DNA of 11,520 nucleotides, taken from Verrucomicrobiota bacterium (GTDB lineage Bacteria > Verrucomicrobiota > Verrucomicrobiae > Chthoniobacterales > UBA10450). The stretch lies in NCBI GenBank assembly GCA_005887855.1, contig VBQB01000110.1, positions 1 to 11,520 on the forward strand. The letters are read 5' to 3'. The translations under genes were made by a program, and so were the position numbers. The notes under the pieces are model-generated. The model was not told the DNA's origin. It saw nothing but the letters and a program-made list of their open reading frames with translations, and did no database searches. Shown piece by piece: positions 1 to 11,520 of the stretch. How positions within the stretch are numbered: the first letter of the stretch is position 1; the number at the start of each line of letters is the position of its first letter.

Positions 1-15
1 TGTAGAATCTTGCAC

Positions 16-786
16 ATGAAAACCACGTCGCTCCTCCTCTCGTCGTTCGGCGTGCTCGCCGTAGCGTTTTTCTGTTTCGCTTCGACTGCGAGCGCGGTCG
101 ATGAACCAAAAGATAAGACTCCATGGAAAATTACCGGCCAACTCGAAGAAGCCTGTTCGTGCGACGCCGCATGTCCCTGTTGGTTCGGTTCCAAACCGAC
201 CAAGATGACCTGTGGCGGCGGTCAGGTGCTCTTCATTCAGAAAGGCAATTACGGAAAAGTGAAACTCGGCGGACTTGCCATCGCGGCTATCGGGCAGAGC
301 CCCGAGGGTCAGACGATGATGGAATCGTTCGGAAACTGGAATTTTGGCTACAACTACATCGACGAGAAAGCGACTCCGGAACAACGCAAAGCATTGGAAG
401 CGATTGCTGCGAAGGTGTTGACGCCGGGCGCATCGAAGAAAACCGAAACGCGCTACGTGCCGATCAACCGCAAGATTGAGGGCAAAGATCACGAGATCAC
501 CCTTGGGCAGTATGGCACGTTTCGTGGTCACCTAGTCGAAGGCGGCATGGGCGGCGCTCCGAAAATCGCGAATCCGCCGGGGGCCGATCCGCTTCATCAC
601 GAATATGCGCAGGGCCGCACGTCAAAGATGACGTACACCGATGCGGACCAGCATTGGGCCTGGGAAAACTCGAACTATATGTTTGGGACGTTCACGATCG
701 ATAATATCCAATACGAAAAATACGCCGCCGGACTTGCGCAAAAGATGGCGCAGATGAAGGACGAAAAAGGCCCCGAGAAAAAATAG
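16..786 (+). CDS. Secreted DUF1326-family protein
   Basis: The protein has 256 residues from the ATG at 16; an in-frame TTG two codons upstream is a less likely start. Residues 1-27 form a signal peptide: Lys2, a hydrophobic stretch LLLSSFGVLAVAFFCFAS, and an ASA-type cleavage site. The mature part carries the DUF1326 signature, a cysteine cluster CSCDAACPCWFG (Cys47, 49, 53, 55) followed by Cys66 in a CGGG turn. The family has no established reaction; the closely spaced cysteines suggest metal binding or redox chemistry, which is inference. The C-terminus is charged (EKGPEKK). Most DUF1326 proteins I know of lack an obvious signal peptide, so export is notable. prmA follows 39 bp downstream on the same strand. 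No clear ribosome binding site is visible in the 15 upstream bases. The family call is fairly secure; the function is unknown. Confidence 0.85.
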   Translation: MKTTSLLLSSFGVLAVAFFCFASTASAVDEPKDKTPWKITGQLEEACSCDAACPCWFGSKPTKMTCGGGQVLFIQKGNYGKVKLGGLAIAAIGQSPEGQTMMESFGNWNFGYNYIDEKATPEQRKALEAIAAKVLTPGASKKTETRYVPINRKIEGKDHEITLGQYGTFRGHLVEGGMGGAPKIANPPGADPLHHEYAQGRTSKMTYTDADQHWAWENSNYMFGTFTIDNIQYEKYAAGLAQKMAQMKDEKGPEKK

Positions 787-825
787 CGCTGGCTGCCGAT
801 CCTGGCAGGGACGCCGGAACGAAGG

Positions 826-1647
826 ATGTATCTCTGGCGCAAAGTCGCCGCGCCGCGCTGGGTGAACGCGAACGAGGCAAGATTACAAGGGCGCGCACTG
901 GGCCAGCTTGCTGTCATCGCGAAGCCAGGCGGCAAGCGATTGCAGATGGAGATCGCATGCGGTTCACAGCCGCAAGCCCAACATCTTCTTCGCGATTTTG
1001 GCGGACGGATCGAAAAGCTGCCGCTTAACTGGTGGAAACGACTTGAACGCGACGGTAGATCAAAGCCGCTTAAGATCGGGAAGCGACTCGTCATTACAAG
1101 GAGCGGCCGTTTCCAAACCGCCCCGGCGATTTGGAAATCGCCGCTCCTTGTTATCCCAGCCGGTGCGGCATTCGGAACAGGCGAACACGCGACTACGGCG
1201 ATGTCTCTCCTCTTGCTTGAACAGCTTACTTCCGGATGGAGAGCCGGTTGGTCTCTTGTCGATCTTGGCACTGGAAGCGGGATTCTCGCGCTGGCGGCCA
1301 AATACTTCGGCGCAAAGCGTGTCCTAGCCGTTGATCTCGATCCTACCGCGATTTCAACTGCGAAAACAAATGCGCGGCTAAACAAGATCGACAAAGTTGA
1401 TTTTCAATTAGGCGATGTACGTCGCTGGAAGCCGGCACGCAAGATCGACATCGTTACCGCGAATCTGCTCAGCGAAATATTGATTCAGATTCTGCCGAAG
1501 CTAAAACGAAGCAATTGGTTGATTCTGTCGGGCGTTTTACGCGCGCAAGAGAAAGAATTTGTTCGTACTTTGCGACGCAGCAAGATCGACATCGTGGACG
1601 TGCGACGTCGCGGGAAATGGGTGGCGGTTTTAGCCAAAACTAGTTGA
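826..1647 (+). CDS. prmA: Ribosomal protein L11 methyltransferase PrmA
   Basis: This cytoplasmic SAM-dependent enzyme trimethylates ribosomal protein L11. The 273-residue product has the PrmA hallmark FGTGEHATT (residues 116-124), the SAM-binding loop VDLGTGSGILALAA (145-158), the acidic strand end AVDLDPTA (168-175) and the motif TANLLSEIL (211-219), matching the NIL motif of PrmA. The N-terminal L11-recognition half (about 1-85) is shorter and poorly conserved; the E. coli protein has 293 residues. Residues 91-109, just before the catalytic domain, are encoded by a palindromic repeat read in frame (see the repeat at 1096-1151). In E. coli PrmA this place is a variable loop, so the enzyme may well stay active. 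The start is the ATG at 826, with a purine-rich stretch (acgaagg) directly before it. A tandem nucleoside-diphosphate kinase gene follows after 94 bp that hold nothing recognisable. Confidence 0.9.
   Translation: MYLWRKVAAPRWVNANEARLQGRALGQLAVIAKPGGKRLQMEIACGSQPQAQHLLRDFGGRIEKLPLNWWKRLERDGRSKPLKIGKRLVITRSGRFQTAPAIWKSPLLVIPAGAAFGTGEHATTAMSLLLLEQLTSGWRAGWSLVDLGTGSGILALAAKYFGAKRVLAVDLDPTAISTAKTNARLNKIDKVDFQLGDVRRWKPARKIDIVTANLLSEILIQILPKLKRSNWLILSGVLRAQEKEFVRTLRRSKIDIVDVRRRGKWVAVLAKTS
1096..1151. repeat. Paired-hairpin palindromic element inside prmA
   Basis: Two 27-nt arms (1096-1122 and 1125-1151) are inverted copies, 24 of 27 positions matching, separated by 2 nt. Each arm starts from the same outer flank (acaaggagc) and contains its own small hairpin: ggccgtttccaaaccgcc on the left and ggcgatttggaaatcgcc on the right. 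One arm-to-arm difference is compensated within the hairpin (g-c versus a-t at arm positions 14/23); another breaks a pair in the left arm. The element is exactly in frame with prmA and encodes residues 91-109 (TRSGRFQTAPAIWKSPLLV). The layout resembles REP/BIME elements, or Rickettsia palindromic elements when inside genes. Assignment to a dispersed family is inference, since only one copy is in the window. Confidence 0.8.
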
Positions 1648-1741
1648 CGCGGCGGACGAGTGACAGCTACGTTCCTCCAGCCTTGGCGGCTTCGGTTTCT
1701 CTGCATTCTACGCGGTTTAATCATAAGCCGCGGCGGCAACC

Positions 1742-2818
1742 ATGCAGATCGAAGAACTTTCCTACGCCATTGTCACTCCTTATTCGATGCGCAAATCGCG
1801 CACCGGTGGGATTGTTGGGCGGTTAATTTCGCGGACGGGACTCGATCTGGTTGGTGGACGGATGTTTGCGCCGAGTGCGGAGCTGGCAAAGCGCTACGCA
1901 GAAGGGATCGTAACTGAAACCAATGCGCGTCACCGCGCGACGCAGGAGTTGATTCGCGATTACGTCCTAAAAAATTTCACGGGCAATGTTAACGGCCAGC
2001 GGCCACGCATGTTATTTCTCATCTTTCGCGGCCCCGACGCCGTGGAAAAGATTCATCGCACGGTTGGTCACATCGTGCATGAACGCACCAGCGGGGAGAC
2101 GATTCGCGACACGTACGGCGATTACATCACCGATACTTCGGGCAACGTGACTTACTTTGAGCCTGGGGTACTCGCGGTTTTCGATTCAAAAGCCGTTGAG
2201 CGTGACTTGAAATTGTGGGCGGAATTTTCCGATCGTGACGGGGGCATCCTGGATCAAGTCATCAATTTCCCAGCCGAAGCTAAGATCGAGAAGACGCTCG
2301 TGCTGATTAAGCCGGACAATTTCAGATTTCCAAATTTGCGGCCGGGCGGGGTTATCGAAGTTTTTTCTCGATCCGGGCTCTACATCATCGGATTCAAGGT
2401 TCATCGGATGAGCGTTGCACAAGCGGAAGAATTCTACGGACCAGTGTTGCCAGTTCTTGAGCAGAAGCTGGGCCCAGCGAGCGGCCGGGATAATTGGGAA
2501 AGCATTGTCGAATTCATGGCGGGAAGGAAACCAAGCGAATGTCCGTCGGACAAACGTGATACTGCTGGGACGGAAAAATCCATCGCCATCGTTTATCAAG
2601 GCGTGGACGCCGTGCGCAAAATCCGGGATGTCCTCGGCCCCACCGATCCAGCGAAAGCGCCGCCCGGTTCAATTCGGAAAGAATTTGGCCAGACGATTAT
2701 GATCAATGCCGCCCACGCCTCTGATTCCGCAGAAAACGCGAAGCGCGAAATGGCGATCGTGCAGATCGATGAAAATAACTTCAAACCTCTGATTGAAAAC
2801 TTCTACCCCCGCCAATAG
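1742..2818 (+). CDS. Double-domain nucleoside-diphosphate kinase with a degenerate N-terminal half
   Basis: Nucleoside-diphosphate kinases pass the gamma-phosphate of ATP to other NDPs through a phosphohistidine. This 358-residue protein is about 2.5 times the usual ~140-150 and holds two NDK folds. The C-terminal copy (about 184-345) has the active-site set: TLVLIKPDNF with Lys190, GPTDPAKAPPGSIRKEFG (nucleotide-binding loop) and NAAHASDS with the catalytic His325. It also has an extra loop of roughly 15 residues after VEFM. The N-terminal copy (about 5-150) keeps the outline (SYAIVTPYSM, a GPDAVEKI helix, GETIRDTYGDYI), but the conserved Lys is Thr12 and the region of the catalytic His reads TYFEPGVLAV. 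It should therefore be inactive, perhaps structural or regulatory. aspC-like follows 44 bp downstream. No convincing ribosome binding site precedes the ATG. The NDK family call is strong; loss of activity in the first domain is inferred from the missing residues. Confidence 0.85.
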   Translation: MQIEELSYAIVTPYSMRKSRTGGIVGRLISRTGLDLVGGRMFAPSAELAKRYAEGIVTETNARHRATQELIRDYVLKNFTGNVNGQRPRMLFLIFRGPDAVEKIHRTVGHIVHERTSGETIRDTYGDYITDTSGNVTYFEPGVLAVFDSKAVERDLKLWAEFSDRDGGILDQVINFPAEAKIEKTLVLIKPDNFRFPNLRPGGVIEVFSRSGLYIIGFKVHRMSVAQAEEFYGPVLPVLEQKLGPASGRDNWESIVEFMAGRKPSECPSDKRDTAGTEKSIAIVYQGVDAVRKIRDVLGPTDPAKAPPGSIRKEFGQTIMINAAHASDSAENAKREMAIVQIDENNFKPLIENFYPRQ

Positions 2819-2862
2819 CTTGCGCTCCCATTTTGAACAATCTCACAACTAGTCCCTTTGCC

Positions 2863-4026
<1,164 letters not shown>

Positions 4027-6731: not shown

Positions 6732-8054
6732 ATGCCCGCTTCTCCCGAGTTTCAACATACCGTTGGCAAAACTGCCGGATTCAGCGGCACGTCGCTGCAC
6801 ACGGGCGAAAAGGTGTCGATCAAGTTGCATCCGGCGCCGGTCGATCACGGAATCAAATTCAAGCGCAAGGATTTGCAGGACGAACCGACAATCGACGCCA
6901 AGATCGAGAATCTGAAAATGGTTGAGCGCGCCACGACCATCGGCGAAGGCTCGGTGCGTGTTCACACGGTCGAGCACGTGCTCGCGGCTCTTTCGGCGAT
7001 GGGCGTGGACAACGCCATTGTGGAGATGGACGCGAACGAACCGCCAATCGGCGATGGCAGCGCGCAACCTTATGTTGATGTCATCAAACGCACCGGCGTG
7101 GCCACGCAGGATGCGCCGAGAAGCTTTTTCGACGTGCGCGACACAATGCACGTGGAATCGAAAACGGGCGCGTTGCTTGTCTTGTTACCGGATGAAACGT
7201 TTCGCATTTCGTGCACGCAAGCCGGACCAAACAATCGTTTCACACAGTTCCTGTCGATGGAAATTACGCCGGCCGTTTTTGAGCGCGAGATAGCTCCGGC
7301 CCGAACATTTGTTTTCTACGAAGATGTTCAACCGCTCATGGAGAAAAATTTGATCAAGGGCGGCAGTCTCGAAAATGCGATTGTGGTGCGCGGGGAGGCG
7401 GTCTTGAGCAAAGAACCGCTGCGCTTCGCCGACGAATTTGTACGGCACAAAATTCTGGACATTATCGGCGATCTGGCGCTCGTCGGTCGGCCGATTCGCG
7501 GTCACGTGGTTGCGGTGAAACCCGGCCATGCGGCGAATGCAGAGTTGGCTCGCGCTCTCGCCCGCGAGCAAACGCGAAGAAGCGCGATGGCGGCACCGCG
7601 CACGATCCCCACCGGCGATGGCGGCCTCGACACTGACGAGGTAATGCAAATCTTGCCGCATCGGTATCCCTTTTTGATGGTTGATCGGATCATCGGCTTC
7701 GAGGCCGATAATAAAATTACGGGCGTAAAATCCATCACGATCAACGAGCCGTTTTTTCAAGGGCATTTCCCCGGTCATCCGGTTATGCCTGGCGTGATGC
7801 AAGTGGAAGCGATGGCGCAAGTGGCCAGCATTTTGTTGTACAAATTGGCTAAGACTTCGAGTCGTGTTGGCTATTTTATGAGCGCGGATGATGTAAAATT
7901 TCGCAAGCCAGTTTTTCCCGGGGACACGATTTTCATTCACGCCGAGCTAACAAAAGCGCGCGGCAATCGCCTGGCGAAAGCGAAGTGCTACTGCGTCGTA
8001 AACGACGCGGTCGTTTCGGAAGGCGAATTGATGTTCACGTTTCTCGATAAATGA
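6732..8054 (+). CDS. lpxC-fabZ: Bifunctional LpxC-FabZ fusion
   Basis: The N-terminal part (about 6-280) is UDP-3-O-acyl-GlcNAc deacetylase LpxC, the zinc-dependent committed step of lipid A synthesis. It shows GTSLHTGEKV (19-28), VEHVLAALSAMGVDN with zinc ligand His82 and Glu81, DEFVRHKILDIIGDLAL with zinc ligands His239 and Asp243, and catalytic His266 in KPGHAANAEL. The C-terminal part (about 298-440) is 3-hydroxyacyl-ACP dehydratase FabZ of fatty acid synthesis: ILPHRYPFLMVDRI, GHFPGHPVMPG with catalytic His345, and Glu359 in VEAMAQ. Both active sites look complete; a short Ala/Arg-rich linker joins them. The two enzymes draw on the same 3-hydroxyacyl-ACP pool, so fusion may help balance lipid A against phospholipid (inference). 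The stop overlaps the lpxA start by 4 nt, implying translational coupling. lpxD, often nearby, is absent from the window. Confidence 0.95.
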   Translation: MPASPEFQHTVGKTAGFSGTSLHTGEKVSIKLHPAPVDHGIKFKRKDLQDEPTIDAKIENLKMVERATTIGEGSVRVHTVEHVLAALSAMGVDNAIVEMDANEPPIGDGSAQPYVDVIKRTGVATQDAPRSFFDVRDTMHVESKTGALLVLLPDETFRISCTQAGPNNRFTQFLSMEITPAVFEREIAPARTFVFYEDVQPLMEKNLIKGGSLENAIVVRGEAVLSKEPLRFADEFVRHKILDIIGDLALVGRPIRGHVVAVKPGHAANAELARALAREQTRRSAMAAPRTIPTGDGGLDTDEVMQILPHRYPFLMVDRIIGFEADNKITGVKSITINEPFFQGHFPGHPVMPGVMQVEAMAQVASILLYKLAKTSSRVGYFMSADDVKFRKPVFPGDTIFIHAELTKARGNRLAKAKCYCVVNDAVVSEGELMFTFLDK

Positions 8055-8857: not shown

Positions 8858-9679
8858 TCAAAATTCCACGCGTAGTCCATCGTAAGCGATATGTGTGCCG
8901 GCGGGGAGCCGCGATTCCGCCGCTTGCGGCAGCTCGTGGCAGATGTGGGTGAAATAAGTCGCGTCCGGCTGGACGCGCAAGGCGATTTCCAACGCCTGAT
9001 CCACACTGAGATGAGTCGGATGTGGTTTGTCGCGAAGCGCATCGATGATCAAGACTTTCACGCCCGCGATAAGATCGATAATCGAATCCGGTACGGCGCT
9101 GCAGTCGCTCAGGTAGGCGACAAGTTTTTGGTCCGCGCGCGAGAAAAGGTAGCCGTTCACAATGGAATCGCCATGCGGCACGGGCAACGGAGTGATAAAG
9201 GTCTCGCCTAGCTTAAACGGCTCATCAATAATGTGCGGCTCGGGCTTCAAATAATATGGAATCGGATTGCTGGTGTTGAACGCGAACCGAAACACGCGCT
9301 CCAGATCGCGCATCGTTTCGACCGACGCATAGACCGGCATCGAGCCCCGCGCATGGGAAAACCGCCGCAAATCGTCAAAGCCCATAATATGATCGGTGTG
9401 TGAATGGGTAAAAATCGCGGCATCGACATTGCGGATACTTTCCCGGAGTGCCTGTGTCCGGAAGTCAGTCCCTGTGTCCACCACCCACGAGCACTCTGGT
9501 GTTTCGACGTAAATTGAAGAGCGCAACCGTTGATCGCGCGGATCGGGAGATCGACATACTGCGCAATCACAGCCGATCATCGGCACACCTTGCGATGTGC
9601 CCGTGCCAAGAAAGGTAACGGCGAGTTGAAAGTTGAGGATTGAAGGTTGAATTGGCAAGCTGGCACTCTCAACTCTCAA
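8858..9679 (-). CDS. PhnP-like metallo-beta-lactamase-fold hydrolase
   Basis: A zinc-dependent phosphodiesterase-type hydrolase; PhnP of E. coli splits 5-phosphoribosyl 1,2-cyclic phosphate. The product has 273 residues from the TTG at 9679. The fold starts at LAVTFLGTGTSQGVP (19-33). CDCAVC (Cys37, 39, 42) matches the extra structural zinc site of PhnP. THSHTDHIMGFDDLR (91-105) is the active-site HxHxDH motif; His169, Asp192 and His223 (HPTHLS) complete the metal ligands. No phn genes are nearby, so the true substrate is open. The start is unsure: there is no ATG or GTG near the fold, and residues 1 to about 18 are encoded by the heptad repeat at 9625-9694, which seems to have covered the original start region. 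It is divergent from recN and convergent with lpxA. Confidence 0.85.
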   Translation of the reverse strand: MRVESASLPIQPSILNFQLAVTFLGTGTSQGVPMIGCDCAVCRSPDPRDQRLRSSIYVETPECSWVVDTGTDFRTQALRESIRNVDAAIFTHSHTDHIMGFDDLRRFSHARGSMPVYASVETMRDLERVFRFAFNTSNPIPYYLKPEPHIIDEPFKLGETFITPLPVPHGDSIVNGYLFSRADQKLVAYLSDCSAVPDSIIDLIAGVKVLIIDALRDKPHPTHLSVDQALEIALRVQPDATYFTHICHELPQAAESRLPAGTHIAYDGLRVEF

Positions 9680-9702: not shown

Positions 9703-11190
9703 ATGCCCGCCGTCCTCGCTTTGTTGCGCATAAAAAATCTCGCTCTCGTGGAAGAGCTTGAATGGGAAATTGCGCCTGGTTTTATCGCCGTAACGGGAGA
9801 AACCGGTGCGGGCAAATCCATTATCATCGGCGCGTTGCAATTGTTGCTGGGGGAACGCGCCGACAAGTCGCTCATCCGCACCGGCGCGGATCTCTGCACG
9901 GTCGAAGCCGTTTTCGCGGGAGAAGATCTGAGAAAACTCAACGCGCAGCTTATCGAAGCGGGGGTCGAACCGTGCGAGAGCGATCTCATTGTCAAACGCA
10001 CCTTCTCAGCCAGCGGAGGCAATCGGCAATTCATCAATGGCTCGCCGACCACGCTTGCCGTTCTAAAGAATCTCGGAGACGAACTTGTCGATCTTCACGG
10101 CCCGCACGATCACCAGTCATTGCTCTCGCCGGAGAAGCAATTGGGCTTGCTCGATTCGTTTGCGCGCGCCGAAGAGCAACTCACCGAATATCGAAAGCAT
10201 TATCGTCAATTGCAGACGCTGCTCGCTGAGCACGCCGCGCTCAACACGGTGGAGACCACGCGCGAACAAGAGCTCGATCTGCTTCGCCACCAAATCAACG
10301 AAATCAGCTCGGCCAATCTGGTCGTGGACGAAGAAGAGGAAATTGAATCGCGTTATAAATTGGCCAGCAACAGCAAGCGGCTGATCGAGCTGGCGAGCGC
10401 GGTCGCGAGCAAACTTTCTGAGGCAGACGATTCGGTTCTGTCGCACCTTGCCGAAACGCAGCGTTTGCTGCGCGAACTGGAGAAGATCGACAATTCGATT
10501 ACACAATTTTCGTCCGCTCACGCTGCCAGTGTGGTCGAGCTTTCCGAGATCGCACGCTCCCTTTCCAACTACGCCGAAAAGCTCGATCTTGATCCGGCGC
10601 AGCTTTCCGCCCTCGAACAGCGCGTTTCGCTCTTCGAAACTTTGAAGCGGAAATATGGCGGTTCAATCGCTGAAGTCATCGCCTTCGGCGAGCGCGCAGC
10701 CGAACGCATGCGAAAGATCGAGGGTCGCGACGCCGAGCTGGAGCGTCTGGCCGGCGAAATTGAAATTACTCGAACTAGCTTAAACCGCAGCGGCGAGGCT
10801 CTGCGCAAACTTCGGACCAAGGCGGCACCGAAACTTTCGGAACACATCCGGCGCAATCTTCGCGATCTTGGTTTTCGTCAGTCGGAGTTCGACGTAAAGC
10901 TGGCCGCGCTCGACGAACCGCGCCCGACGGGATTCGATTCGGTAGAATTACTTTTCTCACCGAACCCTGGCGAACCATTGAAGCCATTGCGGGCAATCGC
11001 ATCTAGCGGCGAAATCTCGCGCCTCATGCTCGCCATCGGCGATTTCACCGCCGCGAGCGCGGGCTTTAAACATACCACTGGCTATGAAGGAATCGTCTGC
11101 GGCTTCTCCGCGATTTATGCCGGCCTCGCTCAAGTGCTCAATGAGGTGTTTGGCAAAACAATGCTGCCGCTCGGGCCGGTGAAGAAGTAA
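9703..11190 (+). CDS. recN: RecN N-terminal part fused to the C-terminal tail of a SatP-type transporter
   Basis: RecN is an SMC-like ATPase used in double-strand break repair. Residues 1-445 are RecN: MPAVLALLRIKNLALVEELE, Walker A GETGAGKS (32-39), LVDLHGPHDHQSLL (the family's LVDIHGQHEHQSLL block, Gln replaced by Pro), a long coiled coil (about 150-365) and the ABC signature ASSGEISRLMLAI (433-445). The Walker B, D-loop and switch His that must follow are missing. Residues 446-495 instead match the end of SatP/YaaH acetate transporters (GYEGIVCGFSAIYAG, LAQVLNEVFGKTMLPLG). The real RecN C-terminus lies on the other strand at 11284-11520. As written, the protein cannot be a working ATPase. 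The ATG at 9703 is preferred over the TTG at 9640, whose 21 extra residues come from the heptad repeat. The cause is either an inversion or an assembly error. Confidence 0.88.
   Translation: MPAVLALLRIKNLALVEELEWEIAPGFIAVTGETGAGKSIIIGALQLLLGERADKSLIRTGADLCTVEAVFAGEDLRKLNAQLIEAGVEPCESDLIVKRTFSASGGNRQFINGSPTTLAVLKNLGDELVDLHGPHDHQSLLSPEKQLGLLDSFARAEEQLTEYRKHYRQLQTLLAEHAALNTVETTREQELDLLRHQINEISSANLVVDEEEEIESRYKLASNSKRLIELASAVASKLSEADDSVLSHLAETQRLLRELEKIDNSITQFSSAHAASVVELSEIARSLSNYAEKLDLDPAQLSALEQRVSLFETLKRKYGGSIAEVIAFGERAAERMRKIEGRDAELERLAGEIEITRTSLNRSGEALRKLRTKAAPKLSEHIRRNLRDLGFRQSEFDVKLAALDEPRPTGFDSVELLFSPNPGEPLKPLRAIASSGEISRLMLAIGDFTAASAGFKHTTGYEGIVCGFSAIYAGLAQVLNEVFGKTMLPLGPVKK
11038..11190 (+). 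pseudogene. 3' fragment of a satP/yaaH (GPR1/FUN34) acetate transporter gene
   Basis: The last 50 residues of the recN frame are not RecN. From Gly446 on (GDFTAASAGFKHTTGYEG, then IVCGFSAIYAGLAQVLNE and VFGKTMLPLG) they line up with the C-terminus of E. coli SatP as I remember it, which reads LLAIGNIAGN, then WIGLICGASAIYLAMGEVLNE and QFGRTVLPIG. This covers the last membrane helix and tail of a protein of about 190 residues; the first ~140 are not in the window. The fragment has no start of its own and is in frame with recN. The codons just before it encode Leu-Ala-Ile, which both families have at this point, so the exact joint falls between about 11026 and 11040. Confidence 0.85.
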
Positions 11191-11204
11191 ACGCGTTTTT
11201 GATT

Positions 11205-11272
11205 CCTGTAGAGGCAGGCGTGCCGCCTGCGAAAATCATCGGAATTGCAGCCGACACGGCTGCCTCCACAGG
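11205..11272. repeat. Paired-hairpin palindromic element between convergent 3' ends
   Basis: Arms 11205-11230 and 11247-11272 are inverted copies, 22 of 26 positions matching, with a 16-nt spacer. Each arm carries its own 7-bp hairpin: gcaggcg-tgc-cgcctgc on the left and gcagccg-aca-cggctgc on the right. Two of the four mismatches between arms are a compensating pair inside that hairpin (g-c versus c-g), which suggests the small hairpins were kept by selection or by copying constraints. It lies between the satP fragment stop and the RecN C-terminal stop, so it may also serve as a two-way terminator. It has the same plan as the element in prmA but a different sequence. Confidence 0.75.
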
Positions 11273-11283
11273 TGACCGCGAGG

Positions 11284-11520
11284 CTACGTTTGCTTTAATA
11301 AACTAGCCGCCAACTCAAGCGCCGATTCACTTTTGCCGCCGAGCATGCGCGCGATCTCTTCCTGTCGAGTTTTGCCGCGGACCTCGCGCAATTGCGAATA
11401 GGTGCGACCACGCACAACTTCCTTCGTCACCACGAAGTGGGAAGAGCCAGTCGCAGCGACTTGGGGAAGGTGGGTGATGCAAATCACCTGATGATCCCGG
11501 CCTAATGTCTGCATCTTCGC
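11284..11520 (-). CDS. recN: RecN C-terminal fragment, partial at the window edge
   Basis: The frame is open to the right edge; it reads AKMQTLGRDHQVICITHLPQ, then VAATGSSHFVVTKE and so on to SLLKQT and a TAG. This is the C-terminus of RecN: the switch histidine in CITHLPQVAA, the SKE/TKE strand, and the ARMLGG...A.ELL end, as in E. coli and B. subtilis RecN. It is exactly the part missing from the plus-strand recN frame at 9703-11190. About 32 residues, including Walker B, should separate it from the signature motif and would lie about 100 bp beyond the edge. Whether a full second recN or a SatP-RecN fusion continues there cannot be seen. The ATG near 11514 is internal, not a start. Confidence 0.88.
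   Translation of the reverse strand, partial: AKMQTLGRDHQVICITHLPQVAATGSSHFVVTKEVVRGRTYSQLREVRGKTRQEEIARMLGGKSESALELAASLLKQT

Follow-up and report, generated by a model that had tools for sequence, protein, structure and literature searches.

The right end of the window (the whole stretch of 11,520 nucleotides that was analysed) raises the question of how recN, a repair gene, has come to run in frame into the tail of satP, which encodes an acetate transporter, and whether the joint between them arose in the chromosome or in the laboratory. ORF analysis of this soil-type bacterium finds the fused frame on the plus strand, with its parts and neighbours arranged as follows.

Positions 9703 to 11190, plus strand: fused ORF, RecN residues 1-445 plus the last 50 residues of SatP and a stop codon, 495 aa from the ATG at 9703.
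Positions 9703 to 11037, plus strand: RecN residues 1-445 (TIGR00634; 445/445 identity with intact RecN P0001; alignment to RecN 4ad8).
Positions 11024 to 11037, no strand: TCATGCTCGCCATC, the site of joint 1, MLAI codons common to intact RecN and SatP; the part shared with the strain's own satP is predicted to lie between about 5 and 14 bp.
Positions 11038 to 11190, plus strand: satP 3' end, 50 codons and stop, displaced and inverted (NF038013; 50/50 identity with intact SatPs P0241-P0244).
Positions 11191 to 11283, no strand: recN-satP intergenic region, now inverted, 93 bp between both stop codons, containing a dispersed palindromic repeat.
Positions 11284 to 11520, minus strand: recN 3' end, last 78 codons and stop, running off the window edge (TIGR00634; 78/78 identity with P0001).

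The program-called start of the fused ORF is a TTG at 9640. Against the TIGR00634 recN profile the fusion aligns over its residues 5-452 (profile 2-460 of 563, E 1.2e-101) and scores 341.5 bits, below the cut-off of 407.85, while 11284-11520 on the minus strand accounts for the profile's end (positions 486-563 of 563, E 3.8e-23); the fusion and the minus-strand piece are thus the two parts of a broken recN. The NF038013 (AceTr_1) match reaches 46.2 bits against a cut-off of 50 and takes in profile positions 125-176 of 176 only, and with the SatP tail alone it spans positions 138-176 (the last 39 of 176, E 1.6e-11), which is the match of a C-terminal SatP fragment. All three matches fall under the curated whole-protein cut-offs, as partial or broken proteins would be expected to do. 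Pfam gave a weaker match (PF01184, E 0.037 in the fusion) and none with the SatP tail alone or the minus-strand piece alone, and an Rfam scan of the whole window at gathering thresholds found no match. The original prediction, made from the letters alone, had read the plus strand as RecN up to LMLAI followed in frame by the SatP C-terminus, with the missing RecN C-terminus on the minus strand after the stop; the matches described above agree with it, including the end of the recN side at 11037.

RecN residues 1-445 retain what we take to be the Walker A motif and the SSGEISRLMLAI signature region. In the alignment with RecN 4ad8, presumably the Deinococcus protein, the segment matching its VFDEVD is absent from the fusion; the VFDEID segment, which has no counterpart in the fusion, we assume to be Walker B. 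The 31 codons (93 bp) linking RecN residue 445 to the minus-strand piece would lie at 11521-11613, just past the window. Neither the RecN nor the SatP pieces show decay at the protein level.

Intact alleles of both genes were found elsewhere. The intact RecN P0001, present on 4 contigs, matches the window residue for residue in both RecN pieces (445/445 and 78/78) and has the 31 missing residues between them, and further intact RecNs differ from the window pieces in a few residues. A SatP-tail-focused protein search retrieved the intact SatPs P0241-P0244 with 50/50 tail residues the same as the window, so that the naming of satP as the fusion partner can stand. With such identities on all three pieces, the recN/satP arrangement is not due to chance. 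The same longest contigs (3950, 7634, 15348, 3171 and 68340 bp) were reported for RecN and SatP matches, from which the two genes are probably intact and together on contigs of these five sizes; P0001 and P0241, whose longest contig is 3950 bp for both, are probably together on one of them.

No RecN-SatP fusion occurs among the best 120 of 7999 matches in the protein search with the fusion, where RecNs cover at most 91% of it, and 0 of the 240 proteins retrieved carry both RecN and SatP motifs. A constructed reciprocal SatP-RecN hybrid, used as a query, returned only ordinary SatPs covering 52-61% of it among the best 120 of 8000. The absence of hybrids is weak evidence, since these are best-120 listings from a database clustered at 90% identity, in which the window's own fusion is likewise not among the matches listed. 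The length limits of the SatP search would pass over a full-length RecN-SatP fusion, and this search was not counted toward the absence of fusions.

Since both genes also occur as intact copies that match closely, the joint is probably either an event that happened once or a chimera made in the laboratory or by assembly, rather than a new kind of gene. An old, selected gene fusion, or a functional RecN-SatP protein, has next to no chance of being the explanation. The in-frame joint speaks for it, but the alignment of MLAI in both genes is itself the reason for that; moreover, the fusion has no VFDEID segment, its pieces are protein-identical to intact alleles, and no fused relative appeared among the matches listed or in the genomes searched. 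We have rejected this candidate because no relative found carries it.

Gene order in relatives was obtained by using RecN as a query, which gave 80 loci, nearly all from MAGs of Verrucomicrobia, Spartobacteria, Chthoniobacterales or Candidatus Udaeobacter; the window's recN block has 76-82% DNA identity with nine of them. The RecN C-terminus follows downstream on the same strand in 76/80 loci, the other four being L013 and three loci where the contig ends (L015, L032, L066). A satP tail is present in 28/80 loci, always downstream on the opposite strand and convergent with recN; among the remaining 52, some contigs stop soon after recN and many have no satP tail within the fetched flank. The inverted arrangement of the window occurs in 0/80 loci. 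Among 83 family genomes, a set overlapping with the 80 loci, 75 have a match, and by the matches listed 35 of these carry the two parts in convergent orientation no more than 3 kb apart, 12 carry them on separate contigs, 2 have them far apart on one contig and 26 have one part only; none of the matches listed spans the joint. A 24-base pattern across the joint was found in 0/122 loci, viral contigs searched with the joint's recN side gave 0 matches, and a literature search on Udaeobacter with RecN found nothing related. In the ancestral order recN and satP converge, as had been supposed at the outset (28/28 informative loci; 35/83 genomes among the matches listed).

Two other recN 3' ends were seen in these relatives. 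In L013, at about 7335-7560, a GC-rich palindromic stretch starts after DHQVI and recN lacks the C-terminus that usually follows, with only 347 bp between recN codon 445 and the satP joint position; either the 3' end of recN is broken at this locus too, or the assembly is wrong. L020 has, at 8987-9100, a second copy of the recN 3' end, a partial one that is 84% identical to residues 40-77 of the C-terminal piece in the window; it lies past a 442-aa minus-strand ORF, some 1.3 kb downstream from an intact recN.

Aligned with L005 and L006, the window falls into two blocks, one on the plus strand up to 11037 or 11036 and one on the minus strand from 11027 or 11024. This is the single-inversion geometry of the original prediction, and it suits a chromosomal inversion that is real, recent and one-off, spans about 576 bp and arose in a single lineage through short inverted homology between recN and satP, a reading to which we assign somewhat less than an even chance. 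The segment is plausible for it: the segment concerned measures 576 bp in L005, L006 and L047, and 483 of the approximately 576 bp are visible in the window, collinear with L005 and L006. The joint also adjoins an otherwise normal stretch, the window being collinear with 16 loci from about 3035 onward (1-3034 lay outside the comparison) and having no second chimeric joint there, which speaks against a chimera.

On the other hand, the inverted form was found nowhere else in the 80 loci or among the matches listed from the 83 genomes, no reciprocal hybrid appears among the best 120 listed, the identical RecN is intact on 4 contigs, and spread is not expected when two conserved genes are lost. 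We slightly prefer a snap-back or amplification chimera over an inversion in the cell, at roughly even odds. The chimera reading draws on the convergent order in all 28 informative loci and in 35 of 83 genomes, on the intact RecN on 4 contigs and intact SatPs with the same tail, on the lack of a fusion or reciprocal hybrid among the best 120 listed of either protein search, on the absence of protein-level decay and on there being a single joint visible in the window. However, all of this evidence is also expected of a very young real inversion. An arrangement seen once only, with identical intact alleles and no decay, leaves either an artefact or a very young and probably harmful inversion.

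The joint itself lies in codons common to both genes. The recN codons up to 11037 read CGC CTC ATG CTC GCC ATC, and in intact relatives a Lys codon comes next. SatPs with the window's tail read Phe-Phe-Met-Leu-Ala-Ile-Gly-Asp (FF-MLAI-GD), and RecN reads L-MLAI-K; therefore the joint should fall within inverted homology of at least 5 and at most about 14 bp. FFMLAI is found in 20/21 of the top SatP matches inspected, and FFLLAI in 1/21. The satP codons of the window's own strain we infer: if its Leu codon is CTN, at least 5 bases would be shared (ATGCT, that is, ATG and the first two bases of CTN), and third-base matches could raise this to 14. The latter is an upper bound, because L100 and L118 have MLAI in both genes, yet only 5 and 6 in-register bases. 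The earlier placing of the joint in Leu-Ala-Ile codons common to both genes is supported by MLAI in the intact RecN and SatP. The accompanying figure of 9-12 bp of short inverted homology is possible, within the bounds of about 5 to 14.

How far relatives share this homology was checked in 22 distinct recN/satP pairs, using an orientation-handled comparison with stricter motifs (an earlier comparison of 43 rows left out 11 rows from reverse-oriented loci). The in-register bases number 14 in L006, 10 in L025 and 2-7 in the other 20. In L006, the exact 14-bp inverted pair at the joint site is the longest recN/satP inverted match there, the next being 9 bp, which favours an inversion, as does the MLAI common to both genes at the joint. 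In 8 further loci the longest such match (9-14 bp) is located elsewhere, reaching 14 bp in L024, so these matches are not unique to the joint site. Set against the satP copies of 28 relatives, the window's recN flank shares 11 bases leading up to the joint with 3 of them, 9 with 2, 6 with 4 and at most 3 with 19; in G007 and others, the two match blocks overlap by 11 bases (11027-11037). Homology-driven switching at joint 1 is likely on these sequence comparisons.

The dispersed palindromic repeat lies between recN and satP at about 11206-11271, has the core GGCAGGCGTGCCGCCTGC and is REP-like. The core occurs with at most 1 mismatch in 5 to 24 copies in each of 9 relatives' genomes, and a reversed-pattern control gave 0 in 9/9; the DNA hairpin within 11185-11290 is stronger than 200/200 shuffles (z -3.47). 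As a driver of the rearrangement this palindrome was rejected, since it is not located at the joint, and it is regarded as a bystander. A separate palindrome at 1093-1154, with 30-nt arms that are 87% complementary, sits inside the ORF 826-1647, which we take to encode a PrmA-like methyltransferase. It falls at a linker of variable length (2 residues shorter to 25 longer in four relatives) and may represent a palindromic element that the reading frame has accommodated.

What separates the two leading readings is the second joint. If the window's segment is 576 bp, it would lie 93 bp beyond the end, at 11613, in keeping with the original estimate of about 11.6 kb. Because the window stops before that point, a one-joint snap-back chimera fits as well as an inversion, for which only joint 1 falls within the window. 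The second joint is the sole point that distinguishes them, a true inversion being followed by the satP 5' half and a snap-back chimera by recN antisense.

For the preferred chimera, we infer one strand switch, in the tube, between short mirrored stretches (at least 5 and up to about 14 bp) that lie in the MLAI codons of convergent recN and satP and are separated by about 576 bp. While the library was being made or amplified, outside the cell, a single strand whose end fell at the satP copy would have primed on the recN copy, either folding back on itself or annealing to a different strand, and an assembler would have incorporated the product. It counts against this reading that a match of at most 14 bp should not by itself mislead a k-mer assembler, so that the chimera would have to pre-exist in the library. 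Past about 11613 there would be recN antisense again, or the contig end. In form, the joint resembles the published MDA chimeras of PMC1855051, of which 406/475 are inverted; they tend to join segments separated by less than 10 kb and show complementarity of as much as 21 bp. Here, too, two nearby segments meet in opposite orientation, within 10 kb and with short complementarity. Against this, the same paper argues that hairpin self-priming and simple template switching are not major routes in MDA. Inverted chimeras also arise in nanopore ligation libraries, according to PMC13141652.

The locus likewise resembles known biological systems. In microhomology-mediated chromosomal inversions, a segment is flanked by short inverted homology and its ends are exchanged, as would be the case here; unlike such inversions with their two joints, one joint is in the window and the event was seen once. 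Intragenic invertons, reportedly described by Chanin et al. in 2024 (cited in PMC11868660), are inversions inside a coding sequence that recode gene ends. The ends of recN and satP would be recoded in this manner, but the locus differs in having no recombinase family in the scanned proteins, no conserved repeat and no second inverted example.

The original prediction had also allowed for a reversible switch, and this part was not supported. That an inverton switches RecN and SatP jointly between off and on is very improbable, and it is just as doubtful that, in a verrucomicrobial lineage, an MLAI inverted repeat of at most 14 bp flips about 576 bp of coding sequence at appreciable frequency. 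Inverted homology could flank the segment, the repeats of invertons being 10-40 nt long and acted on by invertase enzymes in the excerpt of PMC11892184, and the two orientations are both represented if one counts the P0001/P0241 contigs alongside the window. However, a profile scan found no recombinase family in the 8 window proteins scanned. Nor is the repeat conserved, 20/22 distinct relative pairs having only 2-7 in-register bases. Of the flanking copies, the first (11024-11037) is within the window and the place of the second is outside. Alleles in the ordinary orientation exist, and the window is the sole inverted example found; the inverted orientation is absent from the 80 loci and from the matches listed for the 83 genomes, and the hybrid protein from the matches listed in both protein searches.

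If real, the rearrangement would have swapped the 3' ends of recN and satP, breaking both genes and leaving two hybrid ORFs. RecN would keep its signature region and lose the VFDEID segment together with its C-terminus, and SatP would lose 50 of its 196 residues, mostly inside the region 13-193 aligned to the SatP structures 5ys3 and 5zug; both proteins would be expected to be inactive. Were a switch the true explanation, it would shut off the repair of DNA breaks by RecN and the uptake of acetate by SatP at the same time. If the joint is a chimera, it serves as a warning that one strand switch can be enough to put a fusion gene, in frame, into a contig, and comparison with relatives exposes such fusions quickly. 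If the inversion is real, this locus would be a clean natural case in which a chance short inverted match between convergent genes breaks both, and it would predict which lineages are at risk, namely those that, like L006, have matching MLAI codons in both genes.
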